Source: a virus
Virus record (IMG/VR): IMGVR_UViG_3300042923_000188
Coordinates: 1 to 45,503 of that record
Direction: 5' to 3' (one strand)
Length of the DNA: 45,503 nt
Positions 10,766-45,503 of the stretch are shown here, one piece after another. The notes beneath the pieces were generated by a model. That model did not search any database, was not told the origin of the DNA, and saw only the letters and a list, made by a program, of their open reading frames with translations. The first letter of the stretch is position 1, and each line of letters begins with the position of its first letter. The translations under genes were made by a program, and so were the position numbers.

Positions 10766-11009
10766 CGATGGCCTCCCTTGTTCCATCCAGGAACCCCCGT
10801 GCGTACTCCTGGCTCTGATCGGGTCGGTCGGTCTCGAAGAGATCGGCCAAGGCGAGCACGGTCGCCTTCGACAGATAGATGTGACCGATGATGCGACCGA
10901 ACTGATCGGTGGCCTTGACCCCTGTGTCCACGAAAGGACCAACAGCAGAGCCGGTGAGGAAGTCGACAGCCGGTTGGTTTTCCGGAGCGTTCGTGACCTG
11001 TGGGTTCAT
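10647..11009 (-). CDS. Hypothetical protein downstream of terminase
   Basis: 120 residues, soluble. The central region (GRIIGHIYLSKATVLALADL) is amphipathic and the C-terminus is disordered (SPRSEESGD). ATG overlaps the terminase stop as ATGA, with GAGGAAG upstream, which supports it as a real coupled gene. Its last third overlaps the membrane protein gene in a different frame. The function is unknown. Confidence 0.65.
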   Translation of the reverse strand: MNPQVTNAPENQPAVDFLTGSAVGPFVDTGVKATDQFGRIIGHIYLSKATVLALADLFETDRPDQSQEYARGFLDGTREAIGGNLAAVASDLRRYLDVVAPVSDGVVVSPRSEESGDVSA

Positions 11010-12550
11010 GCGAAGTATTCTTCCTCGTAGTCGTAGATTTCCTGGTCCTGCCAGGAATCCTCAGATACTACCTCATCCTGGGCCTGGATCATATTCATGA
11101 TCGTTGCGAAGTCGGTGTGAAGAGGTAGTTCTTTGGTCGGGCCGGTGGGCTCAGGAGCGAGATCCGGCATGATCGAGCCGAGGTAGCGGATGCTGTCGAA
11201 GGCGTGGTCGTCCTTCTTGTGGATCTGCTCCTGGCGGTTCAGTTCGTACTGCTTCTTCTGGCTCTCGTAGGCCTGCCACCGGAGACGCTTCAGTTCGCGG
11301 ATGAGGTTATGGCAGTTCGGGGCAACGACCCACCGAGGACGGTTCGGACCCCAAGGGCCGTCTTCGAGCACACGGAAATACTGCTGAAGCTTCTCGACCC
11401 CGATCATCACGTCACGAGGAACTTCGGTGCCAATGTGAATGCCGTACCGGCCGTACTCCATGATGACCGAGGTGCCGGTGTTCATCTGGCGCTGATTGCC
11501 CGCGGGGTCGCCTATCCGGACTTGGGGCTTCCACTTCCAGTCGGCCTCTCGGGCGAGCACGATCTTCGCGTGTTCTGGGGTAGTCATATCGCCGGAGTAG
11601 TGCTCTGCGAAGGTGATGATCCGACCGTCAGAGTGAGCAGCCGTCCACAGCCAGGCTGTCGGGTTGTTGATCCCGAAGTCGACAGAGGAGTAGAGCGTCC
11701 AGTCTCGGCTCGGGAAGAAGTCCAGGACGTGCGTCGCCGGGGCGAAGTTCGGGAAGACGAGACCGGAGCGGGCGACGAAAGCACCCTCCTCACGAATGGC
11801 TCGCTCCTCCTCGCTCATCGCGACGTAGAACTTGCCTCGCGTGGCGACATCGGACTGGAGGTAGGGGTTATCGCTCTGTCGAAGCTGGAAGGTCTTCACC
11901 TCCTGGAGTGTGCCCGCCTGGCTGGGCTCCCAGAGGAGGTCGAAGGTCCAGCCGATGCCCTGAACTGGAGTAGCCGACATGATCCACCGGCCGTCGTAGT
12001 CGACGAGACGGAGCATGTTCTCGTTGAAGACCGCCTGCGGCGGCTCCTCGTCGAATGCGACGAAGTGGAGCGGCACACCACCATGCTTGTCGAGGTCCAT
12101 CGCGTGCGTCAGGAACTCGATAGTCGATCCGTTCGCCAGCGTCAGCGTCAGGGTGCGGTTGTCCCAGGAGTCCTCCCACGAACCATTCACGAGGTCAGAC
12201 TTGGCGAGCCAGCGCTTCAGCTTCGGCAGGATGATCTTCTCGACACCCTTCACGATGTCGACGACGACGAAACGGCACTGGATCGGTCCTGAGCCCCAGC
12301 CGACAGGGCGTTCAAGGAACGGGTGGGTGTCAGTAGCCCACCAGATCACCTCGACCACGGCGGAGTCGGTCTTACCTGACCGGTTGGCTCCAGCGACGTA
12401 GCGCCCGAAGGCGTCACAGCGATGGAAGTCCTCCTGCTTGGGGTAGGGCTTGTAGGTGTGGCGGTTTCCTCGTGCCACGGACGACGCAAGCTCGTCGCGA
12501 GCCAGCGTGAGAAGGCTCCCGACATCGAGGTCTTGCTTGCGAGGGGTCAT
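11006..12550 (-). CDS. terL: Terminase large subunit
   Basis: 514 residues, usual for the family. The ATPase half has Walker A GANRSGKT at residues 54-61 and a Walker B region FVAFDEEPP near 165-173, followed by SATPVQG (motif III type). The nuclease half has the RNase-H-like acids in YSSVDFGINNP near 295, IGDPAG near 348 and KKDDHAFDSIRY near 465. It packages DNA into the procapsid through the portal and cuts concatemers. The start overlaps the preceding small gene as ATGA. The small subunit candidate is not adjacent but three genes upstream (15345). Confidence 0.93.
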   Translation of the reverse strand: MTPRKQDLDVGSLLTLARDELASSVARGNRHTYKPYPKQEDFHRCDAFGRYVAGANRSGKTDSAVVEVIWWATDTHPFLERPVGWGSGPIQCRFVVVDIVKGVEKIILPKLKRWLAKSDLVNGSWEDSWDNRTLTLTLANGSTIEFLTHAMDLDKHGGVPLHFVAFDEEPPQAVFNENMLRLVDYDGRWIMSATPVQGIGWTFDLLWEPSQAGTLQEVKTFQLRQSDNPYLQSDVATRGKFYVAMSEEERAIREEGAFVARSGLVFPNFAPATHVLDFFPSRDWTLYSSVDFGINNPTAWLWTAAHSDGRIITFAEHYSGDMTTPEHAKIVLAREADWKWKPQVRIGDPAGNQRQMNTGTSVIMEYGRYGIHIGTEVPRDVMIGVEKLQQYFRVLEDGPWGPNRPRWVVAPNCHNLIRELKRLRWQAYESQKKQYELNRQEQIHKKDDHAFDSIRYLGSIMPDLAPEPTGPTKELPLHTDFATIMNMIQAQDEVVSEDSWQDQEIYDYEEEYFA

Positions 12551-14520: not shown

Positions 14521-15345
14521 TTACGCCAGTCCGTAGAAAGAGATCTCTCCGCTATACGGGGAGCCTGCTCCCATTGTGATCTGAAGTCCGGTCAGCTGAT
14601 CGGAGGAGTTCAGGTTGGAAGTAAGTGTGCCTACTCCAGTAGTCCCTCCAAGGACGGTCCAGTCAGAGATGGTGTAGGTCTGAACCGCTGCGTTGGGAGA
14701 AAACCATCGTGTATGAGATACGCCGATTGTGCCCCAGTAGGGAGTGAGAATGCTTCCGAAATCAGTCATCCCGGTCGCCTGGCTATCAGCCCTAGCTCCT
14801 GCAATCAGGAACTGCTGCGCGCGGGAGTGCGTACCAGAAGTAACAGGCGTCGTACCTACCAAACCTCGAACAGGGCAGTCAACGTTTGCGTTTTTCGCTG
14901 TCCAGATTGCCCTGGTCTCGTAGTTACGGAACCGTGAAGAGAAGATCCCCAGAATCTGAACCACCGTACCCGGCGCAACGTTGGTGAAAACCACAGAACC
15001 GTTTGCTCCGATTGTGACTCCGGCTCCTGTCACAGAAGCAGGCCGGATAAGGTACATCCCACCTTCGTTGGTGACCCAAAGCCCGCCGAGACGACGCCAC
15101 AGAGTCTTGCTTCCGTCAGACTCCTGGTAGGTGTCACCATCCTTCGGATCAACAGGGATGGTACCGATGTCAGCGGCAGGGCCATACCACTGCCGGTTCT
15201 GATTGTCCACATCACCGATGGCGGTGTCGATCTTCCGGAAGTTCTCGTTGAGCGGATCGATGTCGGCCGTCTCATCTGGCAGGATCAGACCTGTTGACCC
15301 CCCGCCAGGGAGATAGAGGTTGAGGTTCGGGGTGCTACCAGCCAT
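14521..15345 (-). CDS. Minor tail or fibre protein
   Basis: 274 residues. The start TPNLNLYLPGGGSTGLILPD followed by PLNENFRKID is the N-terminal pattern of phage tail-fibre or appendage proteins that attach to the virion. The remainder is beta-rich with Gly/Thr/Ser-rich strands, and the C-terminus (GLQITMGAGSPYSGEISFYG) looks like a small beta domain. ATG overlaps the preceding TGA (TGATG). It probably contributes to host adsorption together with the proteins at 1802-4509. The binding target is not predictable. Confidence 0.7.
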   Translation of the reverse strand: MAGSTPNLNLYLPGGGSTGLILPDETADIDPLNENFRKIDTAIGDVDNQNRQWYGPAADIGTIPVDPKDGDTYQESDGSKTLWRRLGGLWVTNEGGMYLIRPASVTGAGVTIGANGSVVFTNVAPGTVVQILGIFSSRFRNYETRAIWTAKNANVDCPVRGLVGTTPVTSGTHSRAQQFLIAGARADSQATGMTDFGSILTPYWGTIGVSHTRWFSPNAAVQTYTISDWTVLGGTTGVGTLTSNLNSSDQLTGLQITMGAGSPYSGEISFYGLA

Positions 15346-16115
15346 CAGCCGATCTCCTTCAGAGCGTGTTGGACCCTCGTCGCCCTCATGATACCGTCCA
15401 ACTCCCCGAGAATCGCCTCGCGTACATCCTTGGGTGCGTGCTTCTCGATGGCCTCCACCAGAGTCAGCACGATCTGCCGTGCATTCTGCACTTCGACAGC
15501 ATCCGGATCGAAGCGACCGGACATCTTCAGAGCAAACTCAATAGAGCGCTGGTTCCCGGACTCGACATTGGTGGCGAGCCCGACGATGGCGGCAGGAACG
15601 ATGTCCTCCAGAACCCTCTCCGTGCGCTCTCGGTACATCCGGGAGAAGAGCGGCTGTCGCATCCAGTTCTGGAAGGTGGCGTAGGAGACCCCGAGATCCT
15701 TCAGCTTCGCTGTCGTGGATCGGGCATCACCAGGATTGGTCAGGATCGCGAGAGCGGTTGCCTGCTTCTCCGACAAGCCTGCTCCGCCCGCAAAGCTGAT
15801 GCCACGTCGTTCGAGGGCCTCCTTGAACTCGACGGTGGCGAAGATGGTCTGGAACAGCTTCAGTGGGATAGTTGGCCAGAGCGTCCGAGCCTGACTCGGG
15901 GTGGGAATCTGCCCTCTGTCGTTCCAGTACACGTCGACCGCCGCCAGAACGTGCCGGAAGTGCATCGGTGAGATGTCCTCCGGCACCTTCTGGCGGGCTA
16001 CCCGACCATCGGGATTGAGTACGACTACTTCCGAGCCTTCGACCTCGAATGCCCTCTGCGGGGCTCCGTCAAGTTCCATATCACCCCAAACGCGAGTGAG
16101 AACAAGATACCCCAC
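15345..16115 (-). CDS. Small terminase subunit candidate (HTH)
   Basis: 256 residues. Residues about 110-160 (LSEKQATALAILTNPGDA, then KLKDLGVSYATFQNWMRQPL) form a helix-turn-helix of the kind found in phBC6A51-type proteins and small terminases. A helical region (GNQRSIEFALKMSGRF) and a charged C-terminal helix follow, which fits an oligomerising DNA-recognition protein. GTG at 16115 is the longest start; ATG at 16079 with GGGGTG upstream is a good alternative. Small terminases choose the packaging site and load the large subunit. Here three genes separate it from terL. A transcription regulator is the other possibility. Confidence 0.65.
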   Translation of the reverse strand: MGYLVLTRVWGDMELDGAPQRAFEVEGSEVVVLNPDGRVARQKVPEDISPMHFRHVLAAVDVYWNDRGQIPTPSQARTLWPTIPLKLFQTIFATVEFKEALERRGISFAGGAGLSEKQATALAILTNPGDARSTTAKLKDLGVSYATFQNWMRQPLFSRMYRERTERVLEDIVPAAIVGLATNVESGNQRSIEFALKMSGRFDPDAVEVQNARQIVLTLVEAIEKHAPKDVREAILGELDGIMRATRVQHALKEIG

Positions 16116-18031: not shown

Positions 18032-18067
18032 GGTGTCTCCTCTGGTCGGTGTGAGGTAGTTGGCAGA

Positions 18068-18387: not shown

Positions 18388-18404
18388 GGTATCAAATGGA
18401 CGAA
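18388..18404 (+). promoter_or_regulatory. 17-bp leader element, copy 1
   Basis: GGTATCAAATGGACGAA, one mismatch from copies 2 and 3. It stands 73 bases before the start of the first rightward gene and 18 bases beyond the -35 box of the divergent promoter. All three copies precede a separately transcribed plus-strand gene. Confidence 0.7.
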
Positions 18405-18410
18405 ACTCAA

Positions 18411-18473
18411 TCCGGAACAAGATGCCGGAGACTATCTCATGTAGGGGGAGATACCCCCGGACCTGGGAGGTCC
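18411..18473 (+). promoter_or_regulatory. Structured leader with AUG-UAG and sequestered ribosome site
   Basis: Three consecutive perfect hairpins can form: 5-bp TCCGG/CCGGA (18411-18429), 5-bp GGGGG/CCCCC (18444-18458) and 6-bp GGACCT/AGGTCC (18459-18473). The last holds the GGGAGG ribosome site of the downstream gene in its loop and stem. Between the first two lies ATG immediately followed by TAG (18439-18444), a minimal start-stop element preceded by the same CTATCTC found before the endolysin start. Confidence 0.5.
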
Positions 18474-18476
18474 ATC

Positions 18477-18725
18477 ATGTTCAAGTCAGCACAGACACTC
18501 GGCATCAACCCCGCCATCATGGCCGGGATGGTGATGAAGGATGACGTGATCACGGTCGGTCATCGCGATCACCTCGAAGTGGTCGATGTGGTCAAGCGTG
18601 GCAAGTATCGCGAGATCCAGGCCAAGTGCTTCGAGGGTGAGGTGTGGACGGGGCGCACGGTGTCGCGCACCTTCCACGAGGAGTTCGTCGTCTACCTGCT
18701 CGGCACGTACCGGAAGGACGCCTGA
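18477..18725 (+). CDS. First rightward early gene, hypothetical
   Basis: 82 residues. The core is a small beta-rich domain (DDVITVGHRDHLEVVDVVKR) followed by basic strands (GKYREIQAKCFEGEVWTGR). This looks like a compact SH3- or OB-like fold, possibly nucleic-acid binding, but no family is recognised. ATG at 18477 is chosen for the GGGAGG site; the open frame upstream runs through the leader hairpins. It is followed after 2 bases by the next gene. Confidence 0.7.
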   Translation: MFKSAQTLGINPAIMAGMVMKDDVITVGHRDHLEVVDVVKRGKYREIQAKCFEGEVWTGRTVSRTFHEEFVVYLLGTYRKDA

Positions 18726-18727
18726 TC

Positions 18728-19105
18728 ATGACTACCGTCATCCCTGAAGGCCTGACCTTCGACGAGTACCACCCGTCAATGGCTCCCATCTTCGAGAGCA
18801 TCGCGCGGCGCGCGGTGTCGGATGGAAGGTCCTACGAATACAACGAGATGGCATCTCGGCTCGGGTTCCCTGACCTCGACGCTCTGTCGATCTCGGCCGA
18901 GAAGCGCTACACATGGGAGGTCGAAGTCGAAGTCACTCGCACGGTGACTGTCTCCGTCAGCGCTACCGGCACGTCCGAAGAAGAGGCGTGGGAAGCTATC
19001 AACGAATCAGATGTCGAAGAGGCACTGGACAGCGATGGCATCGAATACGACTCCACGGACCCGAACTGGGGCAGCTACAGCCTCTACGACGAAGAAGAGA
19101 TCTGA
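18728..19105 (+). CDS. Early protein with EYHP domain, paralogue A
   Basis: 125 residues. Residues 1-75 (IPEGLTFDEYHPSMAPIF, then GRSYEYNEMASRLGFP) match residues about 137-210 of the next gene product, so the two are paralogues. A beta segment follows (WEVEVEVTRTVTVSVSATG), then an acidic C-terminus (DVEEALDSDGIEYD). No catalytic motif is visible. It shares a transcript with the preceding gene. The very acidic surface could suit a host-protein-binding inhibitor, which is conjecture. Confidence 0.75.
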   Translation: MTTVIPEGLTFDEYHPSMAPIFESIARRAVSDGRSYEYNEMASRLGFPDLDALSISAEKRYTWEVEVEVTRTVTVSVSATGTSEEEAWEAINESDVEEALDSDGIEYDSTDPNWGSYSLYDEEEI

Positions 19106-19151
19106 TCATCTCGGGCTCGGGCGCTTCGGCGTCCGGGCTCGGATGGAGCTA

Positions 19152-19168
19152 GGGATCAAATGGACGAA
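19152..19168 (+). promoter_or_regulatory. 17-bp leader element, copy 2
   Basis: GGGATCAAATGGACGAA, identical to copy 3. Ten bases later comes CTACCTCA, then GTAAGTTCA. A TANNNT box (TAAGTT, 19192-19197) stands 23 bases beyond the element, nearly the same as in copy 3. A short GC hairpin around CTTCGG lies just upstream (about 19117-19134). Confidence 0.7.
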
Positions 19169-19242
19169 TGCCCTGCCCCTACCTCACCCCGTAAGTTCAA
19201 TCTTGGGCGGCTTGCCCACACACAACGATCTGGGAGGATCAC

Positions 19243-20052
19243 ATGACAATCACCGAAGCAGAATTCGTCTACCTTCAGGCGAACTCCACTCGTCTGCCGC
19301 GCGATATTCGCGAGCACGTCGAAGATGGACGCGGAGTCGACAACCTCAACAACCACGGCGGATGCAGTGCAGATGCGCGTCGCTGGCTCGACGCCAACCC
19401 CATGCCCACGGAAGAGAGCATCACCCGTATCTCGCAGCTGCGAGTCGGAGATGTGGTGCGACTCACCGGCATGTCGTGGGGTGCGGCCTACGCGGACACG
19501 GAAGCCACCGTGACGCGCATCGAGCGCAACCGGGCACACCTCACGGGAACGTTCGTCATCGAGGACCAGGAATCGCCATTCAGCGAATCGTGGCCTTGGA
19601 CGTTCGTTCGCCACGCCGAACCCACGCCCGAGACGGGTGGAGAATCGCCGGAGGTGCCCGAGGGACTCGTGTTCACCGAGTACCACCCCGCTCTCCTGCC
19701 GCTCTTCACGAAGGCCGCTCTTGCGGCCGACGAGGCAGGCTACTGCTCCGAGTACGACGCCATCGCGTCCGAGATCGGTGCGCCGAGTCGCGACGAGATC
19801 AAGCAGCTGGCCGGTAAGGAGTTCACCATCTCCTTCCCCATGACGGTCAACGTCACCACGACCGTCAAGGGCCTCAACCAGGATGACGCGCAACGGCGGT
19901 TCCGACAGACCATCGACTACCCTGCCATCCGCGCCATGATCGAGACCGCGATCACCGGCAACCGCTACGGCGACCCCATCCAGCGCAACACCAGCGGGTA
20001 CGAAGCCCAGTACCAGAGCAACTGGACTGTCACCGAGTCCCCGACCCCCTGA
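19243..20052 (+). CDS. Two-domain early protein, paralogue B
   Basis: 269 residues. Residues 1-50 contain a helical and Cys/His segment (NLNNHGGCSADARRWL). Residues about 62-125 form a beta barrel-like domain (ISQLRVGDVVRLTGMSWG; HLTGTFVIEDQ) resembling SH3 or KOW folds. Residues about 137-240 are the EYHP domain shared with the preceding gene (VPEGLVFTEYHPALLPLF), followed by FTISFPMTVNVTTTVKG. ATG has GGGAGGA upstream. It is its own transcription unit between the leader element and the hairpin at 20068. The function is unknown; no enzyme motif is seen. Confidence 0.75.
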   Translation: MTITEAEFVYLQANSTRLPRDIREHVEDGRGVDNLNNHGGCSADARRWLDANPMPTEESITRISQLRVGDVVRLTGMSWGAAYADTEATVTRIERNRAHLTGTFVIEDQESPFSESWPWTFVRHAEPTPETGGESPEVPEGLVFTEYHPALLPLFTKAALAADEAGYCSEYDAIASEIGAPSRDEIKQLAGKEFTISFPMTVNVTTTVKGLNQDDAQRRFRQTIDYPAIRAMIETAITGNRYGDPIQRNTSGYEAQYQSNWTVTESPTP

Positions 20053-20067
20053 CCTCCCAGGGCTGGG

Positions 20068-20089
20068 CGGCTCCCCGAAAGGGGAGTCG
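20068..20089 (+). terminator. Hairpin terminator after paralogue B
   Basis: CTCCCC-GAAA-GGGGAG with outer pairs extending the stem to 8-9 bp including one wobble and a GNRA-type tetraloop. It lacks a clear U-tract. It lies 15 bases after the stop and 18 bases before leader element copy 3, so it separates two units. Confidence 0.65.
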
Positions 20090-20106
20090 TCCGGTCGGGT
20101 CACCGG

Positions 20107-20123
20107 GGGATCAAATGGACGAA
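20107..20123 (+). promoter_or_regulatory. 17-bp leader element, copy 3
   Basis: GGGATCAAATGGACGAA, identical to copy 2, again followed after ten bases by CTACCTCA and then GTAGATTCA. TAGATT at 20148-20153 could be a -10 box. A second CTACCTCA occurs at 20173-20180, and a GCGCT/AGCGC hairpin (20232-20246) lies in the rest of this 147-base leader. Confidence 0.7.
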
Positions 20124-20270
20124 CTGCCTCCCACTACCTCATGCCCGTAGATTCATCCTTGTCAGCCCCGCACTACCTCACCGGAATAAGTCGGTGGATT
20201 TGGTGGGGCACCCATGCACATCACGTCATAAGCGCTGAGAGAGCGCACGACCCTGGAAGGACCGCACACC

Positions 20271-20507
20271 ATGCTTCCCCGTATCAAGCACATCCGACCG
20301 AACTTCACTCAGCTGATCTCCGATGAAGGCACTCTCTACTTCTCCTACGAGACGCTTATCGCCTTCGAGGTGGACGGCACTCTCACGATCCGCAAGAACG
20401 ACTGGGGTCCCACCACCGGCAGGCACCTCAACGAGATCAACCCTGACAAGTCGATCCGTGTGGACAGGGACACCTTCAGAGAGCGCTGGTCGCTCATCTT
20501 CTCCTGA
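20271..20507 (+). CDS. Small early protein of an actinophage-type family
   Basis: 78 residues. The pattern GTLYFSYETLIAFEVDG, then NDWGPTTGRHLNEI, matches a small family I recall from actinophages, in which the NxWGPTTGxHLN motif is invariant. No function is known to me. It is beta-rich and probably a single domain. The start is ATG with GGAAGGA nine bases upstream. A strong hairpin follows at 20528-20558, so this is a single-gene unit. Confidence 0.8.
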   Translation: MLPRIKHIRPNFTQLISDEGTLYFSYETLIAFEVDGTLTIRKNDWGPTTGRHLNEINPDKSIRVDRDTFRERWSLIFS

Positions 20508-20658: not shown

Positions 20659-20682
20659 AGAGTCCTGTCAAGTGAAAGCATA

Positions 20683-20699
20683 TTTGACACGATGTCAAA
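20683..20699. promoter_or_regulatory. Palindromic site 1
   Basis: TTTGACA-CGA-TGTCAAA, a perfect 7-bp inverted repeat with a 3-base spacer. It includes a TTGACA box on each strand. A TACACT box follows 20 bases after the plus-strand TTGACA. A half site TGTCAAG lies at 20666-20672. It is the same element as the two copies at 20763-20805. Confidence 0.7.
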
Positions 20700-20762
20700 C
20701 ACCTCGCTTTACACTGGAAACACTGACAACTCACCCCAAAAGAATCACATAGCGAAGCACTT

Positions 20763-20805
20763 GTTTAACAGCATGTCAAACGCTATGTTTAACAGCATGT
20801 CAAAC
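20763..20805. repeat. Tandem palindromic sites 2 and 3 (24-bp period)
   Basis: GTTTAACA-GCA-TGTCAAAC occurs twice, at 20763-20781 and 20787-20805, as 19-bp imperfect palindromes with identical sequence and a 24-bp period. They form an AT-rich patch in an otherwise GC-rich genome, ending 15 bases before the next gene. They can be repressor or activator operators, or iterons of a replication origin. In the plus-strand frame they encode a repeated FNSMSN peptide, but that frame is most likely not translated. Confidence 0.75.
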
Positions 20806-20820
20806 ACGATTGGAGCACGA

Positions 20821-21081
20821 ATGGAACTTCACTGGCAGGACCCTCCAGCCCCTCAGCCACGTAACCCGCGACGACCGGTGAACCGGAACTGGAACTCCAT
20901 CATCGAGACGCTGCGAGCCAACCCTGGGCGATGGGCACTCATCGAGCAAGGTGCGACTCTCGGTGCTGTGCAGAGCATCCAGAACACCGTCAATCGACGC
21001 AACGAGGGAGACCTCGAACTCATCACCCGCCGCAACCCCTCAGGTGTCGGACTCGACGCCTACCTGAGATCAAACCCCTGA
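20821..21081 (+). CDS. Small basic protein after the palindromic repeats
   Basis: 86 residues. The Pro/Arg-rich start (PAPQPRNPRRPVNRNW) leads into a helical domain (NSIIETLRANPGRWALIEQG; AVQSIQNTVNRRNEGDLELI). The PGRWA segment occurs in small actinophage proteins of unknown role. The frame is open far upstream, but ATG at 20821 has TTGGAG upstream and the longer version would cross the palindromes and hairpins. Its basic, helical nature and its place next to the repeats make it a candidate for the protein that binds them; this is inference only. Confidence 0.7.
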   Translation: MELHWQDPPAPQPRNPRRPVNRNWNSIIETLRANPGRWALIEQGATLGAVQSIQNTVNRRNEGDLELITRRNPSGVGLDAYLRSNP

Positions 21082-23661: not shown

Positions 23662-24123
23662 ATGACATCCGTACACCTCAGCGAGGGCGAGAGCCGAGTG
23701 CAGTCCGCACTGAAGGAGCACCCCGGCTCGACTGTTGCCGAACTGGAAGGCCTGGCCAAGGCCAGCCGACCTACGGTTCGCAACGCCCTCGTCAAGATCG
23801 AAGCTCGCGGTAACCTTCTGTCGACCCGAGAGTGGCCACGTCGCTACTCCTACGTCGCTATCCCACAGGCCACGCCTGAGGAGTCCGAACCCCGGTACCT
23901 CATCCAGCCCGACAACGTGAAACCTCACCTCATCGGTCGAACCTGGGCCGGGAGCCGCGAGAAGATCATCAAGGCCATCGAGGGGATCGACCTGTCTCGA
24001 ATGGACAAAGCTCAGGTCGAGAAGGCCTTCGAGGCTGTCACCAAAGCCACCAGCGGCATCTACGCCGCTCTCCGACAGATCGAGGATGGCCCGGAGTGGC
24101 GACAGGAAGCAGGAGTGAAATGA
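23662..24123 (+). CDS. Winged-helix DNA-binding protein
   Basis: 153 residues. Residues 5-65 have the pattern of a winged helix: SRVQSALKEHPGSTVAELEG, then a recognition helix in LAKASRPTVRNALVKIEARG, and a wing ending in TREWPRRYSYVAI. The C-terminal half is helical (RMDKAQVEKAFEAVTKATSG) and could dimerise. It is the clearest transcription-regulator candidate in the early region and a candidate for binding the palindromes or leader elements. It heads the operon that runs to the nuclease and helicase genes. The next gene overlaps by ATGA. Confidence 0.75.
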   Translation: MTSVHLSEGESRVQSALKEHPGSTVAELEGLAKASRPTVRNALVKIEARGNLLSTREWPRRYSYVAIPQATPEESEPRYLIQPDNVKPHLIGRTWAGSREKIIKAIEGIDLSRMDKAQVEKAFEAVTKATSGIYAALRQIEDGPEWRQEAGVK

Positions 24124-35528: not shown

Positions 35529-36236
35529 TCAGCCGTGATACTCCCAGTGCCAGGGTTCAAACTGGGAGAAGTTCTTTCCGGTCCAGACCCAGCCGTAGCG
35601 ACCGGCATTGGCTTGGAGCCAGCGGTGCTGAGCAGATCCGGCGTTCTGGATCGGGCCACCGAGGTCGACTGCTCGACCGGACTCGTGAACGGACGTTCCA
35701 GGAGGGGCTGCGAGGTTTCCCCGACCAGCCTTGTACGCCGCGAAGGCACGAGCCTGCTCCTCATAGGACCGCCCACCGGAGTTGACGATGAGGTCTCCGC
35801 CGAACTGCTGTCGGTAGGCCTGGTTCAGAGCCTGGAGGGCGCGTGTCGCTCCGACAGTGAGGCCGTGGGACCCACCTGCCTCGAAGGCTCTGCCTCCTCC
35901 GCCGCCTCCATGCTTGTGCGGGGCCGACGTGCCCATCTGGACGTTTCCGTAGGCCTGAGCACGGGCCAGCGACCGCTTCTGGCCGATAGCCTTCAGCCTC
36001 AATTGGTGCTGGTTCGAGCTTGAACGCTGAACCATCCCGACGCGATCTGAGATCGTTGGAGCGGCCGAGCGAGTCTGTCCCATACCGGCTTTGCCAGGGC
36101 CTCGTGGGGTAGGCAGCGCCACCTGTCCGGAACCGACGCCACCGAGCACGGTGTTGGCGTACTCGGCGGCTTGGTCCCGAGGGTTCAGGAAGTCTCGCTG
36201 AGGGATATTGCTCTGAGGGGGGGTGAAGACAGTCAT
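35529..36236 (-). CDS. Virion-associated M15 peptidoglycan peptidase
   Basis: 235 residues. Residues 1-115 are disordered and basic with a run of glycines (HKHGGGGGGRA). Residues 120-235 are a VanY-type peptidase with zinc ligands H184, D191 and H230 and E227 (FEPWHWEY). The domain resembles the N-terminal domain of the endolysin. The start overlaps the stop of the giant ejection protein as ATGA. It probably helps the virion cross the wall at infection. It ends the leftward virion block. Confidence 0.8.
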   Translation of the reverse strand: MTVFTPPQSNIPQRDFLNPRDQAAEYANTVLGGVGSGQVALPTPRGPGKAGMGQTRSAAPTISDRVGMVQRSSSNQHQLRLKAIGQKRSLARAQAYGNVQMGTSAPHKHGGGGGGRAFEAGGSHGLTVGATRALQALNQAYRQQFGGDLIVNSGGRSYEEQARAFAAYKAGRGNLAAPPGTSVHESGRAVDLGGPIQNAGSAQHRWLQANAGRYGWVWTGKNFSQFEPWHWEYHG

Positions 36237-39200
36237 TCGGCAGGCACCTCTCCGCGCTTGCGTTCAAGCTCAGCGTAGTTGATGTAGTTCGGCCGGGACA
36301 TGTCCTGGATGCCGAGGCCGGTGGCCCAGTTCATGGCCGACAGCCACATGTCCTCGGAGCCGAAGCCTCCCTTGTTGCCCTTCGCGACCTGGAACTGCGG
36401 GTCGAGGCCAGGCTTGCCGCTGAAGATCGATCCCAGCGAGCCGGTCACCGAGACGCCCATGATGTCGCTGAGGTAGTTGACTCCAGGGATCGACTCGTCA
36501 AGGTAGTCGGAGGCGTCGTTGATGCGAGCGCCGGTACCGAGAGAGCCACCTGCTGCGAGTTCGACAGGGGTTCGGATGAGAGGCGAGGTCATGCCGAGGA
36601 TGCCCCGGATCGGGTCCGCACCGAGCGTGTTGAACACGTCCATGTGCGTGAGTCCGGGGTTGACCCCGAAGTAGCCTTCCGCGGCGTTGCCGAACTGCGG
36701 GCCGAGCGCCTTCTCCGTGAGGAAGGAGGGGAACAGCTGATCCTGAGGGAACGGCTCGGAGATCGAGTCGGGGTTGACCCCGTTCGCCACAGCCAGGTTG
36801 TAGCTCGCCTTCGGGAAGGCCATCACACGACCGGGGTGACGGAGCGTCGACTCGAAGATGACAGGGAGGATCTTCGAGAACCACGAGTAGAAGGGGACCA
36901 CGACGCGGAAATACTTGCTCTCGCGGGGGGTGAGCATCGAGGCGTCGGGGTGGTACTTCTTGACCTCCGCCGCCGCCAGGTCGAAGAGGTTGTCCAGGCT
37001 CTTCACGCCAGAGAACTGCTTGCCCGAGAAGACACCGCCCTTGCCGAGTTCCTGGTGAAGGATCTGGATGAAGTGCTGTGCGCGAGCGTAGTGGTCGCGG
37101 GCCTGGGAGACTCCACCTGCCGCCTTGTTGAAGGCCGTGGTGCGACCGTGTACGTCCTCCTGGAGGGAGATCACCTTCGACCACTTCGCCATCTTGCTCT
37201 GCATCAGGGCGTCGTCGAACGTACCCTCGCTCATGTGGTAGGTCGGGCGAAGACCCTTCCGGTGCAGGAGATCGAGGATGTTGCCAGCTGTGATCTCCAC
37301 CTTCTGGCCGTTCAGGGTGCCTCGCACGATCACGTCGCTCTGTCGGGCCGGAAGAGCATCCTCGCCGTCGACAGCCTTCAGCGCCTTGATGAGGTCGACA
37401 TCGGTGTAGTCCTTCCGCATCGCCATGACCCGGAAAGCATCGCTCATCGAGCGGGAGTACTGTCGGCCTCCGCGCTTGACCCAAGTGATCGAGGCGTCAC
37501 CGATGGCGTTGCGGATGTGGTGGCCGGGGCGGTAGATCGTGATGGCGATCTTCCAGGCGTTCTGGAGAGGCATGAAGTACTTACGCACTGCCTCGCCCAT
37601 CTCACCCTGCATCTGACGTGAGGTAGTGGTCAGGATGTCAGCGTGGTGAAGTTCGCGGATGATCTCCTTGTTGTAGTAGACCGCCTTGCCGTCGATCTGC
37701 TGAGGCAGGAAGACGCTGAACGACGACGTGTTCGAGGTGTGAGGCACCTTCACGAAGCCAGGCTTCGGGTCATACGACAGCCACCCGAGGCCCTTGCCGC
37801 GAGCGACGAAGTTCTCGACGATGGCCTTGCGCTCAGCGAGAGTGAGAGCGGCATCCGACATGCGCGAGAGGAAGTCGGCCGGGTCCTCGATCTTCCAGCC
37901 TCGCCACTGCTCACCGAGGAACTGATAGAAGCGAGTCGGCTTGCCGAAAGCCTCGACCGCACGGCTCTTCGCGAGGCCGATGTCGAACTGCGGGAGGAAC
38001 TGCTTCGACGAGTCGAACTTGATCTTCAGCAGGTCGTTGAGATAGTCGAGGTTCTTCTCCGTGTTCAGGAAGACGTTCGAGAACAGCGAGTCCTCTCCGG
38101 CATCCCAGAGGTTCGCCACCATGCGAGCAAGCTCCGACTGAAGCTCGTCATCCGGACGGATCGGAGAGCGCAGCTGCACCCGCTGGAACGCCTCCAGCAT
38201 CTCCTCGCGAGTGTACCGCTTCGACAGGTCCGACAGGCGGAGATGCAGGGACCCGAGGTACTCCTGAGCCGCGAGGGACTTGTTGTGGGTGATGTCCCAG
38301 ATCTGCTCGTGCCCGTGCTTGACATTGAACGTCTTCGAGAGTTCGCCACGCATCCCGAGCAGACGCCGGGTGCTCTGGTCGATCTCGGCCACAGACCGAG
38401 GAGCCATGTCGTAGATCTCGATGGCCTCTCCGTAGGCGGCGAGAGCGTCGGCCTCATCAGAGCCGTCGAGACGCTGACCGATGTTGGCCTCCAGCATGGC
38501 CTTGCCACGAGCCGCGTCGATCTGCTCGTCCACCTCCGAGACAGCGCTCTTCACGCGCTTCCTGGTGGCATTGTCGACACCGTTCTGGACCGCCCTCAAA
38601 TCCTCTGCCTTCTCCAGCGGTACGAGGACAGCTGCGTCCTCCACGATGTCGTCACCGACCGCGACACGGGTGATCTCCGTGGCGGCATCCACGCTGTCCT
38701 GGTAGGTGCCAGTGGCCGAGCCCGCCTTCGCGATGTTCTTGTCCAGCCCAGCCACCTGTCGGAGGAACTCGCTCCGAGCGGTCGGGTCGACATAAAGGTC
38801 ATCGAGCCGCTGGAGAGCTTCGCTGGCGAGGTCGTAAGTCTCAGTCGCTCCCCGCTCTGCCATGCGCCAGCCGTTGTTGATGGCTGTACGAGCGAGCGAT
38901 TCACTGGCCTCCCGAATGCCATAGGTCAGCTGGTCAGCCAGTTCCTCGCCTGTGACGTGGACCCATCCGTCGCCCTTGCTACCCTTCGGCTTGAAGGACT
39001 TGAACGCCTTGATGTCGGCCTTCGTGAGGTTGTTGGGCATGGCCTCGCCCCTGGCACCCTTGGCACCAGGCTTCTGCGTGTTCAGTAGAGCAGCCTTGAT
39101 CTCGTCGTCCGAGCCACCCCACAGCGCCACGCGAACGGCGTCTCCCACGTTCGTCCAGTTGGCTCGGGTGTTGCCGTTGTGGAAGAGCATCAGGCGAGCG

Positions 39201-42133
39201 TCGTCAGGAATCACACCCTGGAGAGCGCGGTGGATGTCACCGAACGACAGGGGGATGAGGTCCTCGCCGTAGCCGAGCACCTGCTTGACGCCCAGCCGGT
39301 TGAGGGACTGGTCGAGGAGAGTGTGGATCTGGGTCCAGAGACGCTCATCCCAGCGAGCGCGGTTCTTCGAGTACATCCCGGCGATGTTCTTCTGACCGAT
39401 GCCCTCGCGCTTGAACACCTCCTCCGACAGTTCGATGATGGCAGGCCAGATATTGGCCTCCACGTCGTACTGATTCTGGGTGTTCCACTTCTTCAGGTGC
39501 CAGCCGAGACCCTCGCCGTTCTCCTGGGCCGTGCGGTAGGCACCAGACCGGGACCGGAAGGGGGCCTTGTCGGGAACGTCGGTGATGTTGTTCTTCGTGA
39601 CCTTCGCGATGATGTCACCGACCACCCGAATGAGCGCACGAGGATCGTCGGTGCGAGGCAGAGGCGTCTCGTCCACCATCGCCTCGACGATCTCAGCGAC
39701 CTCTTCCGCCGTGCTCGGCACCGGGCTGATCGTCGAAGGAGTGTCGACCACCTCTGCGATGTCCGTCGCAGTCGCACCCTCGATGTCGGCCGGTCGAGGC
39801 GTTGTCGGCGTCGGGTCCGGAATGAAGGGAACCGGAGGAGGCTCAGGCATCCCCTCCAGAGCCTCCTCCGGGAGAGCCTCAACGGTGTCCTGTGTTGCCG
39901 GAGGCTCGGTCTTGGGGGTCGGGTTCAGGGTCTCATCGACCCCGAGCATGAGTTCCCTGTCGAGGACGTTCAGCCCAGGACGGGTCTCGTCGAGACGGCG
40001 AAGCTCGCGAAGAGTCTCCAGGTTGTCGAGATCGAACTCGTTGTGCAGGAGGCGACGGAGGACCTCCATACGCTGGACGAATCGAGCCGGGTTCCGGCCC
40101 ACGGCGTCCATGACGTACTCGTAGCCGTACTCGCCCATCTGCTTGTACAGCACGTCGTGACGCTCGCGAATGAGGTACTGCCAGGCGTCTAGGACGTTCG
40201 TGATCTCGACAGCTTCGCGAGCGGGGTTCATGTAGCCGAGTTCGATCTCCTCGCGGAACAGCTGGTCCGCTGCATCGAGGATCTCGTACTCGCGGCGAGT
40301 CATGTTCGGGGGCGTGTAAGAACCGGCCTCTCCGGGCACGTAGTTGTCGATATCGTCGATCCGTCGAAGAAGCTCCTGGACCTCTTCCACAGAGACCTTC
40401 ACCTCAGCGCCGGAGGCGAGTTCGAGAGTGATTCGGCCGCTCTTGTCGGCAAGCTCTTCGAGACCATTGCTGACCCAGTAGTTGAACGACGCCACGTAGT
40501 CGGAGATGACCGCCTCGGAGTGCCCGAAGCCCTTGGTGCCGGGAACGATAGGCGACCGAGCCGGGACGGCGGGAATTTCGCCCGCCTTGACCATCATCTC
40601 CACCGTGTCGAGGAGGTCGCGCATCCGCTTGGCCTGCCCGGAGGACTTCAGGATCTCCCCGGGGGAGAGCGGCGTCTGGCTGAGCCCAGCTGCGATTCCA
40701 TGAGGAGCAGCACCGGTACGAGAAGCGGTTCCCTGTGTCTTCTTCGCCACCTGCATCTGGGCAGGGGCCACGCCGTTGTCGTTCTCTGCCAGCCACTTCG
40801 CTGCGGCGTCGTTCTCCGGGGTCTTCAGAGCGGCTTCCGCGAGGATGTCGGACGCCTTCGCGTCAGCCTCGCCAGCACGAAGACCCTCTCGCTCCTTGGT
40901 CGAGGTTCCGACAGGAATGAAGCCTTCGAGTTCGTCTCGCACGTAGGGGCGGTTGATCTCGGCCTCTTCGCGAAGGAAGCGGAGGTGGCTTTGCCACTCA
41001 GGCGGGAGTTCGCCGGAGCGCTCCAGTGTTACCGCCTGCTCCACCATGTCTCGTGTGATCGGGACCTTGGACTTGCCGGTATCGATGGCGTAGCCGAGGT
41101 CTGCAATGCCCACCCACATCTGTCGAGCCTCGTCACGAGGGCTGGGGACCTCCTGCTCCGCCTTTGCGACCGCCTGAGCCACCTTCGGAGCCTCGACAAC
41201 TTCCGGGTTGTCCTTCTTCCGGGAGGTTTTCCGGGCCTTCTGCGGGGTCGGAGCGGTCGCGAATGTCTTCTCGTCGAACAGAGGGGCGCTCGGCAGTTCC
41301 GGAAGACGGGGCTCAGGAGCCACAGGAGGCCGAATAACGGCTCCAGTCGGCGGCTCCTGGAGGAACTCCGACAGAGCGTCAGATGGGCGTAGAGCGGGCA
41401 TCTCAGCCAGCCCCGCAGCCGTTTTCTCCGGGAGGGGGATGCTCATTGCCTCCCGAGGGGTCATCCCGCCTCGCTGAGGAGCAGCAGGAGGGGTCTCAGA
41501 GGAGGCGACAACTGCCGGGGTCGCCGCCTCCTCCGTCTTTGCGGCCGGAGAGAGCTTGCCCTTGACGGCTCGTGCTCCCTTGACGATGGCTCCGACCGGA
41601 ATAGGAACGTACGAGATCGGGTCCAGCGCCATATCAGCAGTGAACCCGGCGATGCCCTTCAGAGGGCCGTACACGTTGTCGACTCGATCCACGTAGTCGG
41701 GGTTGAATGCCTGCCCCGCCTTGTCCGTGCTCTCTTCGATCACGTCGGAGAAGAACCGCTTCTTATCCGGCTGATCGGTCGTCAGCCCTTCGATGAGACG
41801 GCCAGGAGTCCTCGGATTGAAGAGCACTTGGCCGAGCATCTCAGCTACACCACCGGCGTCTCCCTGCTGGACCTTCTGGATCGAGGCCACGTTGTCGTCG
41901 ACGATCCCGGAGACTGCGTTCGTCACGCCGTACAGCGGGCGGCTCAGGAAGTCGAGGGTAGCACCGAGCGGGTCCTTCATGAAGTCAGGGTTACCCCCCT
42001 GAGCAGCAGGAGCAGCACCTTTCATTCCCGACAGGTAGGCGTCCCAGCCAGCATCGCTCTGCTGAGGTGCAGGACCACGCTTTCGAGCGAGGTTTCGCCG
42101 CGCCTCCTCGAAGTATTCAGAGAAGGATGCCAT
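36233..42133 (-). CDS. Giant internal virion (ejection) protein
   Basis: 1966 residues, 13% of the genome. The N-terminal 200 residues (PLYGVTNAVSGIVDDN; LKGIAGFTADMALDPISYVP) resemble the membrane-interacting start of large phage internal proteins. A Pro/Thr-rich linker lies near 750-810. The C-terminal 500 residues (NAWKIAITIYRPGHHIRNAI; YFRVVVPFYSWFSKILPV) match the large polyvalent-protein type domain of podovirus ejection proteins. The likely job is to be ejected with DNA and form a channel through the envelope. No catalytic motif is certain. The start is ATG; the ribosome site is weak. Confidence 0.7.
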   Translation of the reverse strand: MASFSEYFEEARRNLARKRGPAPQQSDAGWDAYLSGMKGAAPAAQGGNPDFMKDPLGATLDFLSRPLYGVTNAVSGIVDDNVASIQKVQQGDAGGVAEMLGQVLFNPRTPGRLIEGLTTDQPDKKRFFSDVIEESTDKAGQAFNPDYVDRVDNVYGPLKGIAGFTADMALDPISYVPIPVGAIVKGARAVKGKLSPAAKTEEAATPAVVASSETPPAAPQRGGMTPREAMSIPLPEKTAAGLAEMPALRPSDALSEFLQEPPTGAVIRPPVAPEPRLPELPSAPLFDEKTFATAPTPQKARKTSRKKDNPEVVEAPKVAQAVAKAEQEVPSPRDEARQMWVGIADLGYAIDTGKSKVPITRDMVEQAVTLERSGELPPEWQSHLRFLREEAEINRPYVRDELEGFIPVGTSTKEREGLRAGEADAKASDILAEAALKTPENDAAAKWLAENDNGVAPAQMQVAKKTQGTASRTGAAPHGIAAGLSQTPLSPGEILKSSGQAKRMRDLLDTVEMMVKAGEIPAVPARSPIVPGTKGFGHSEAVISDYVASFNYWVSNGLEELADKSGRITLELASGAEVKVSVEEVQELLRRIDDIDNYVPGEAGSYTPPNMTRREYEILDAADQLFREEIELGYMNPAREAVEITNVLDAWQYLIRERHDVLYKQMGEYGYEYVMDAVGRNPARFVQRMEVLRRLLHNEFDLDNLETLRELRRLDETRPGLNVLDRELMLGVDETLNPTPKTEPPATQDTVEALPEEALEGMPEPPPVPFIPDPTPTTPRPADIEGATATDIAEVVDTPSTISPVPSTAEEVAEIVEAMVDETPLPRTDDPRALIRVVGDIIAKVTKNNITDVPDKAPFRSRSGAYRTAQENGEGLGWHLKKWNTQNQYDVEANIWPAIIELSEEVFKREGIGQKNIAGMYSKNRARWDERLWTQIHTLLDQSLNRLGVKQVLGYGEDLIPLSFGDIHRALQGVIPDDARLMLFHNGNTRANWTNVGDAVRVALWGGSDDEIKAALLNTQKPGAKGARGEAMPNNLTKADIKAFKSFKPKGSKGDGWVHVTGEELADQLTYGIREASESLARTAINNGWRMAERGATETYDLASEALQRLDDLYVDPTARSEFLRQVAGLDKNIAKAGSATGTYQDSVDAATEITRVAVGDDIVEDAAVLVPLEKAEDLRAVQNGVDNATRKRVKSAVSEVDEQIDAARGKAMLEANIGQRLDGSDEADALAAYGEAIEIYDMAPRSVAEIDQSTRRLLGMRGELSKTFNVKHGHEQIWDITHNKSLAAQEYLGSLHLRLSDLSKRYTREEMLEAFQRVQLRSPIRPDDELQSELARMVANLWDAGEDSLFSNVFLNTEKNLDYLNDLLKIKFDSSKQFLPQFDIGLAKSRAVEAFGKPTRFYQFLGEQWRGWKIEDPADFLSRMSDAALTLAERKAIVENFVARGKGLGWLSYDPKPGFVKVPHTSNTSSFSVFLPQQIDGKAVYYNKEIIRELHHADILTTTSRQMQGEMGEAVRKYFMPLQNAWKIAITIYRPGHHIRNAIGDASITWVKRGGRQYSRSMSDAFRVMAMRKDYTDVDLIKALKAVDGEDALPARQSDVIVRGTLNGQKVEITAGNILDLLHRKGLRPTYHMSEGTFDDALMQSKMAKWSKVISLQEDVHGRTTAFNKAAGGVSQARDHYARAQHFIQILHQELGKGGVFSGKQFSGVKSLDNLFDLAAAEVKKYHPDASMLTPRESKYFRVVVPFYSWFSKILPVIFESTLRHPGRVMAFPKASYNLAVANGVNPDSISEPFPQDQLFPSFLTEKALGPQFGNAAEGYFGVNPGLTHMDVFNTLGADPIRGILGMTSPLIRTPVELAAGGSLGTGARINDASDYLDESIPGVNYLSDIMGVSVTGSLGSIFSGKPGLDPQFQVAKGNKGGFGSEDMWLSAMNWATGLGIQDMSRPNYINYAELERKRGEVPAE

Positions 42134-44480: not shown

Positions 44481-45503
44481 CTACGAGATCGTCTTGACGA
44501 CGGATTCCTTGCCCGTGATCCGGGCCGACAGAGTGAAGACCTGAACAGGGGCGCTCGCGATGGAGCCGTCTGTCTCGAACTCCAGTCGGAAGAAGATCTG
44601 ACGGAACCTCAGAGCCTTCCGGAACTTGACGAATTTCCGAGCGGAGCCGAGGCCCTCCAGATCGTATTCCGTGATGACCTCGATAGACCCCTGGAAAGGA
44701 CTACCCCATGTGCCGTTGAGAAGCTGTCCCCAGGTGACACCCTGAGCGATCAGCTGTCCCCACGTCGGCTTCGAGTTGTAAGTGATCGGGGAGGCGATGG
44801 CCTTCACCTTGCGGCGGAAGAGAGCATCCACGCCCCAGTACGCCAGCCTCTTGAAGTTCGAGGCCAGCTTGTAGTCGAAGTTCTTGGTCTGGAGGACGCA
44901 GGTGAACTCCTCCGTGGCTGTGGTGACTCGATCCTCGATGTACAGCAGAGGGGTAGACCGAGATCCGCCAGCCGGAACCATCTTCGAGGGGAGCACGTAG
45001 GCCTCGTCGGCTGCGGCACCTGCCACTGGTGGAACGAACTGCCCAATGGCACCGTAGGTCTCCGAGCGCCAGCGAGTCCAGGTCCGAGTCCGGAGCGAGA
45101 AGACGTACATAGTGTCGTAGTAGCCGAAGATGATCCGGTTATTGAACGCCGACACCGTGAAGGGGAAAGCGATGTCGGCCGTCGAGACAGCGCTGAATGG
45201 CACCTTGATGTTGACCTGAGAAGCCCGGTTGTTGATGAACTCGTAGGCCTTCTCCTCGAACATGAAGTAGATGTAGTTCTCGAAGTTCACGAGGGCGTTC
45301 TTGTCGCTGAGTCCAACGCCGGGAACGAGCACCTGCACCGAGCCCTGAGCAGGGTCAGTGAGGTACTCGAACGAGAAGATCGAGCGGGTCCGGAAGACGA
45401 CGAGGGTGTTGTAGTACTTGGTCAGCGCGACCACACTCTCACCATCGCCAGCACCGATGTCGACAAACCCCGGCGTCTGCCAGAAGTTCGGCTGGCCGAG
45501 CAC
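44481..45503 (-). CDS. Propeller-like virion protein, C-terminal part (split by contig ends)
   Basis: The frame is open to the right end of the window and, after circular closure, joins the fragment at 1-646 to give 513 residues. The GTG at the very edge is an internal valine, not a start. Repeated strand blocks (VVALTKYYNTLVVFRTRSIF; FNNRIIFGYYDTMYVFSLRT) are propeller-like and resemble P22 gp10-type tail-hub proteins. The C-terminal third (KFVKFRKALRFRQIFFRLEF) is beta-rich and basic. It would stabilise packaged DNA at the tail hub. It contains the right copy of the 127-base repeat. Confidence 0.85.
   Translation of the reverse strand: MLGQPNFWQTPGFVDIGAGDGESVVALTKYYNTLVVFRTRSIFSFEYLTDPAQGSVQVLVPGVGLSDKNALVNFENYIYFMFEEKAYEFINNRASQVNIKVPFSAVSTADIAFPFTVSAFNNRIIFGYYDTMYVFSLRTRTWTRWRSETYGAIGQFVPPVAGAAADEAYVLPSKMVPAGGSRSTPLLYIEDRVTTATEEFTCVLQTKNFDYKLASNFKRLAYWGVDALFRRKVKAIASPITYNSKPTWGQLIAQGVTWGQLLNGTWGSPFQGSIEVITEYDLEGLGSARKFVKFRKALRFRQIFFRLEFETDGSIASAPVQVFTLSARITGKESVVKTIS
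45377..45503. repeat. Terminal direct repeat, right copy
   Basis: Identical to bases 1-127. Removing one copy leaves 45,376 bp. Both copies code for the same internal part of the propeller-like gene. Confidence 0.95.

Follow-up and report, generated by a model that had tools for sequence, protein, structure and literature searches.

A 17-bp element, present three times in this viral DNA, appears to be a sequence-specific signal that a family of actinobacterial podophages carries in the region of its direct terminal repeat (DTR), acting both in packaging and in the control of the units there; we put this reading at about an even chance. The window, that is, the whole stretch of 45,503 nucleotides analysed, has identical first and last 127 bases (1-127 and 45377-45503), and a gene homologous to that for Shocker gp33 crosses the joint of its ends; it is therefore a closed circular assembly. 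Protein comparison revealed the same gene order as in Microbacterium phage Shocker, with which it is collinear, and a more distant collinearity with Arthrobacter phage Jasmine. Its structural genes, with that for the terminase large subunit (TerL; 11006-12550, minus strand), are transcribed leftward and its replication genes rightward from a divergent junction near 18.3 kb, at which the linear genome of Shocker ends. A 1966-aa protein (36233-42133), kept across the family and without a Pfam or PDB match, is probably an ejected internal virion protein.

The 17-mer lies on the plus strand at 18388-18404 (with one mismatch), 19152-19168 and 20107-20123, and a scan of both strands of the window produced no fourth site with three or fewer mismatches. 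Shuffled versions of the window held a mean of 0.10 sites, and three were reached in none of 100 shuffles. A PWM built without the window copies returned the same three sites at 17.9-22.6 bits, the rest of the window scoring 9.3 bits or less. This bears out the sequence-only reading, which had described three copies and no others, each followed by a rightward ORF (starting at 18477, 19243 and 20271). The interpretation given there stands only in part, and one correction concerns the copies themselves: copy 1 belongs to another class than copies 2 and 3.

Copy 1 (GGTATCAAATGGACGAA) is a type I element, the sole site in the window with a box I downstream (AACAAGATG, 18416-18424, plus strand; family consensus TACAACATC), and has no upstream hairpin (z 0.3). 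Copies 2 and 3 are type II elements and directly follow hairpins, as had been noticed earlier. Upstream of copy 2 is a GC-rich, terminator-like hairpin without a T run (19112-19144, plus strand, limits approximate; z -4.1, 70 nt folded), and upstream of copy 3 the hairpin CTCCCC-gaaa-GGGGAG (20070-20087, plus strand; z -3.4); the copies are followed by GAATGCCCTGCC, a weak box II, and GAACTGCCTCCC, a box II, respectively.

The same division into two classes was evident across a catalogue of 45 sites of at least 12 bits in the early regions of 17 genomes, which were picked because they hold matches and whose sites seeded the PWM. Type I is the first copy in each genome, located at the divergent junction without an upstream hairpin and with the box TACAACATC 8-18 nt later; by a relaxed pattern this box follows 17 of 17 first copies (16 of 17 by the strict pattern) versus none of the 28 later ones. 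Type II comprises the later copies, 27 of 28 of which stand behind a strong hairpin (z <= -2) and most of which head the next short unit; the only later copy lacking one stands in tandem, 65 nt behind its neighbour. Hairpin z values, obtained from mononucleotide shuffles, averaged +0.4 at type I sites and -4.2 at type II sites. An ACTG..TGC block directly follows many type II sites. One composite type I element was present per genome in all 17 early regions, and the window and the Shocker genome, each searched from end to end, both contain a single one. The copies number one to four (first copy only in G017 and G029) within about 2 kb and in the same orientation; repeated sites near the cut are also a feature of cosB- or pac-like sites bound by the terminase small subunit.

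The family form of the core word is GGAATCAARTGGA, on the early strand and at the same divergent junction in relatives. The IMG/VR relatives were gathered via TerL alignments. Related-locus searches with two-sequence alignments gave 16 and 7 loci, and a nine-sequence TerL alignment gave 338, of which 80 were kept. No related loci were recovered in genome contigs, or with the helicase alone as query, and the protein encoded at 19243 yielded one weak relative only. When 32 whole records were searched with the pattern, 12 of them yielded 29 matches in all, versus 2 for the reversed-pattern control; the matches were on one strand only within each record, and one of the 29, at 39890 in Casserole, is probably due to chance. 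Where the sample is defined by length alone, as the 15 TerL loci whose upstream stretch measures 8.6 kb or more (several of these loci also supplied seeds), the element is present in all 15. Thirteen of them score at least 16 bits on the early strand, and the other two, L097 and L131, carry degenerate forms read by eye: in L097 the TACAACATC box is perfect and the first copy degenerate, and in L131 there are TACAACATC and a later GGAAACAAGTGGTC behind a hairpin. The opposite strand of the same stretches reached a maximum of 13.6 bits (L127 and L126). A similar pair was read by eye in Cellulosimicrobium phage DS1. Among 20 further TerL loci with 5.0-7.8 kb upstream the element was found in 2 (L071 and L038); the remaining short loci probably stop before the divergent junction. 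All 45 catalogued sites lie on the early strand, the best reverse-strand score being 11.3 bits. G036, whose sites score below 12 bits and were read by eye, was excluded from the 17 genomes, and in Shocker a 13.0-bit site at index 21551 of the rotated string was dropped as lying well outside the terminal region. No convincing copies were found farther out in the whole records searched or in the 17-genome catalogue. The element is conserved in relatives where the flanking genes are mostly different, in keeping with the sequence-only reading. A search of viral contigs with the exact 17-mer gave seven matches, which by sequence context were judged chance or coding. A scan for the element plus CTACCTCA gave three, of which L012 looks coding, and there were no further core copies in the L013 and L014 records. 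An Rfam scan of 7 loci gave nothing near the gathering score.

The evidence for a packaging role comes from deposited genome ends. The exact 484-bp DTR of Shocker starts within its type I copy (GGTCAA/ATGGAA), after the eighth base of the only composite type I site in that genome; this site is degenerate, scoring 9.7 bits by a PWM made without Shocker, and was not found by a PWM from other, more distant clades alone. Of six Jasminevirus records, five have their DTR start at ...gatactgg/CTGGAACTRATGAACCCGGCAACATG; in the sixth, Casserole, it lies eight bases later at GGAACT/AATGAACC. All six starts fall within or beside a related word that is followed by a CAACATG box, the match being made by eye and requiring a gap. 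Full reading of three Jasminevirus genomes showed two extra copies of their own version of the element inside the DTR, each behind a terminator. The physical genome end is thus in the 14-mer in Shocker and near a related site in the six Jasminevirus records. Given these DTR starts, copy 1 probably marks the genome end of the window as well: by analogy it is the predicted left DTR end, cut near 18395/18396. The span from first to last copy is less than about 2 kb in the catalogued genomes, and known DTRs measure 484 to 1558 bp. Taken with the Shocker and Jasminevirus ends, this span leads us to predict that the linear genome of the window starts near 18395 and that its DTR passes copy 3, so that copies 2 and 3 would both lie inside it. 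The sequence-only reading had overlooked that the copies fill the region which is the DTR in Shocker and Jasminevirus, where the first copy coincides with the physical end. For the far end of the DTR no clear site was found in the window.

In Jasminevirus (L020, L021 and L022, read in the early orientation) the far DTR end is located in the loop of an inverted repeat (CCCCTCTACC..GGTAGAGGGG in Jasmine), and in G027 and G033 similar hairpins come behind the final type II copy. Inverted repeats at the DTR end could reflect a hairpin-based duplication of the DTR.

We propose that the packaging machinery would cut at type I, in the window near 18395, and that one DNA-binding protein, for which a TerS-like HTH protein is the best candidate, would read the 14-mer shared by both types. 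The bound protein would mark the terminal region for packaging and occupy the gap before each DTR unit, and the hairpin ahead of type II would keep upstream transcription away from the site. Because the type II copies are tied to terminal-repeat units, a regulatory role is suggested as well; judged from the DNA alone, the packaging and regulatory roles are inseparable.

The terminase small subunit (TerS) candidate of the window (15345-16115, minus strand) is a 256-aa protein with an HTH and the proposed, putative binder of the element. It is encoded in the structural operon, has gp12 as its Shocker homolog, and was found in 36 related loci; 18 of 21 aligned members scanned matched a terminase small subunit family of PHROG. 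The fold predicted for it (mean pLDDT 78, pTM 0.44) gave only a weak match to a solved structure, the phage protein phBC6A51 (best E 0.026). This protein could bind the 14-mer, and a TerS-like HTH protein would be a better candidate than the products of 20821, 23662 and 34610; the HTH protein at 23662, with a weak TrmB match, may be considered the second. A more specific proposal, which we hold to be rather unlikely, is that one phage protein, probably TerS, reads the 14-bp word in two ways, with TACAACATC as the packaging end and without it, behind a terminator, for the silencing of each host-takeover unit in the terminal repeat. If this were true, the terminal genes would be shut down one unit after another as packaging begins, and the DTR would be cleared of transcription.

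Several points weigh against the element as a signal of the DTR region. Several copies would be needless for packaging alone, the TerS fold match is weak, the Shocker type I site is degenerate, the by-eye Jasminevirus match requires a gap and involves deposited ends that differ by 8 nt between five records and the sixth, and the presence of one element for nearly every DTR unit fits a role in transcription at least equally well. The main rival is accordingly that of an early-promoter regulatory site: an activator, repressor or upstream promoter site of the short DTR units, with the genome end merely adjoining the first of them. We regard this as a serious possibility, though on balance we doubt it. 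There is about one element per unit, and the distance from it to the start of the following ORF, where an ORF was found, is mostly 50-170 nt. This is not the placement of a start-associated sequence, which sits at the ribosome-binding site immediately ahead of the start codon. The copies are also identical in spite of diverged genes. Unit 1 of the window consists of a gene for an 82-aa protein of no family (18477-18725) and a second gene (18728-19105) whose product is 35% identical to a domain of the 269-aa protein of unit 2 (19243-20052), and unit 3 of a gene for a 78-aa protein (20271-20507; phrog_5643, function unknown), all on the plus strand. Genes after the elements differ widely, yet copies 2 and 3 are identical across 17 bp, and for this reason each copy seems to be under selection.

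The -35 is weak or absent at most -10-like boxes, which favours a regulatory site. The sequence-only reading was right that the element is asymmetric, in a single orientation, ahead of three early units and without a usable -35, and that copies 2 and 3 are followed, after a ten-base gap, by CTACCTCA and then by GTAAGTTCA or GTAGATTCA. Behind copy 2 (19178-19205, plus strand) a CTACCTCA box at 19179-19186 is accompanied by the -10-like hexamer TAAGTT, 26 nt after the 14-mer; behind copy 3 (20133-20160, plus strand) the box is at 20134-20141 and the hexamer TAGATT, 27 nt after the 14-mer. In relatives, clear extended -10 boxes are 32 to 65 nt after the 14-mer, and in other genomes plain TANNNT boxes are 19-27 nt after it. 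A sigma-70 -35 keeps a fixed distance of about 17 nt to its -10; here the boxes are at 19 to 65 nt or absent. As the -10-like boxes lie at such varying distances, the element is not a core promoter, and the suggestion that it forms part of one or substitutes for the -35 finds no support. The related suggestion of an activator site survives within the regulatory-site explanation. Such a site would keep a conserved distance or helical phase to its promoter; the distances observed here vary, but refer to predicted start sites. The same variation, about 19 to 65 nt, counts against a regulatory site generally. So does the main early operon promoter region (TTGACA at 20684, before the gene at 20821), which has no element, as do the Shocker end inside the first copy and the last type II copies of G027, G028, G030 and G033, after which no ORF was found within 300 nt. 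An ECF-sigma promoter has the form GGAAT-N18-GTT; by-eye comparison showed that most copies do not fit this pattern.

Sites that are long, asymmetric, uniformly oriented and ahead of early units might also be promoters for a single-subunit RNA polymerase that the phage encodes or carries in its virion. No such polymerase was found among the proteins scanned (a part of the ORFs), and in the 1966-aa virion protein, which was included, no conserved polymerase motif is visible; we consider this explanation very improbable. Slightly less credible still is that the element is the RBS and start codon (GGAGG-AATCAA-ATG) of short leader peptides. An SD-like GGA and an ATG or GTG are correctly spaced in many copies, and in G028 and G030 similar peptides of 10-11 aa are encoded by four of the type II copies. 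As a translation start the element was nevertheless rejected: ATA occupies the start position in three copies (G005 copy 1, G014 copy 1 and G030 copy 4), the frames stay open for anything from 2 to 280 codons, the peptides are not conserved in the window, and the spacer bases are conserved as strongly as the SD.

The genes themselves might suggest that the element is a cassette boundary, the copies being recombination joints for the gain or duplication of element-gene-terminator units in the DTR. Successive units encode related proteins in the window and in G031, and in other genomes such proteins are found in different units. The domain shared by the 18728 and 19243 proteins is common to terminal-region proteins of G017, G027, G031, G033 and G035. 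No recombinase or exact junction supports it, and a selected binding site would also stay conserved without conserved flanks, so that little probability, though a shade more than for a polymerase promoter, attaches to this idea. The shared domain carries ...GYCSEYDAIA... and is present in duplicate in both the window and G031; the window proteins 18728-19105 and 19243-20052 matched nothing in PHROG.

Several known systems invite comparison with a signal of the DTR region. The cos region of lambda consists of the cut site cosN and repeated sites for the terminase small subunit in cosB, and resembles the present arrangement in having one cut site with several sites of the same type to one side. 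Here, however, genes separate the copies, which are spaced at 0.3-2 kb, the ends form a DTR rather than cohesive ends, and binding is putative. Host-takeover modules of the SPO1 type are arrays of small early units in a terminal repeat with their own control signals, and to that extent are alike; we are not aware that these modules share an element connected with the genome end. To our knowledge the recognition and duplication of ends by DTR phages has been detailed for very few models. The element offers a sequence handle for locating the genome ends in circular metagenomic assemblies from this family, among them the window, and it provides a link, open to testing, from packaging to the control of the early genes in the terminal region.

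Like T7/T3 and the Bacillus DTR phages, the present family has a fixed sequence at the DTR end; in the available part of the Bacillus report, the shared AGGTTTT ends are taken as a terminase recognition or cleavage site (PMC5418689). Unlike in those phages, relatives of the end motif are here repeated inside the DTR before units, and a second box marks the end copy. Jasmine is described, in the portion of its report available, as a podovirus with a 1330-bp DTR holding the early gene Lsr2 (PMC5513430). It is collinear with the window, and Jasminevirus possesses its own version of the element in three copies, the first at the DTR start; this version is diverged in sequence and has an extra GGATATATACCG block. 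The accessible text of PMC5513430 does not mention repeats of this kind. For Microbacterium clusters EC, EF, EG and EI, start-associated sequences and other repeated intergenic motifs are reported in the available sections of PMC7302621. As far as those sections go, such actinophage motifs are, like the element, short, asymmetric or inverted, placed before genes and conserved within clusters; they differ in being present in 5-12 copies genome-wide, mostly near start codons, whereas the element is restricted to the terminal region and has a distinct first copy. What these two sources describe for Microbacterium and Arthrobacter phages, in the parts available, is other repeats or none (PMC5513430, PMC7302621). 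A full-text literature search with three forms of the word returned apparently nothing on the element, judged by titles and listing, and no mention of Shocker was found. We found no earlier description of a link between packaging and early gene control such as the element points to.

The CTACCTCA box had been taken for a conserved part of the element, and this was rejected: it is a separate motif of the window genome, over-represented there with 19 copies (for example at 18052, 18310, 20173, 21474 and 34369) versus 0.84 expected, and is not enriched in the element-bearing relatives. It is often located 7-29 nt before start codons on both strands. In its place Shocker has CTGTAAAGG and TACCCTAA and low-GC relatives TACGCTA; each group apparently has one genus-specific intergenic motif.

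Structured-looking sequence follows the last type II copy in L143, L142, L148 and L149 (G028, G033, G027 and G030, respectively), and it is possible that these stretches are terminal-repeat RNAs. Three palindromic repeats at 20681-20809 (TTTGACAcgaTGTCAAA, and TGTTTAACAGCATGTCAAAC twice), just before the gene at 20821, probably serve the main early operon as operators and might be bound by the product of that gene. On the early strand of L060 (G014), copies 1 and 3 are followed by a palindrome (TTGCCGTCTGGCAA and TGCCATCTGGCA) immediately upstream of the -10-like box, a possible operator.
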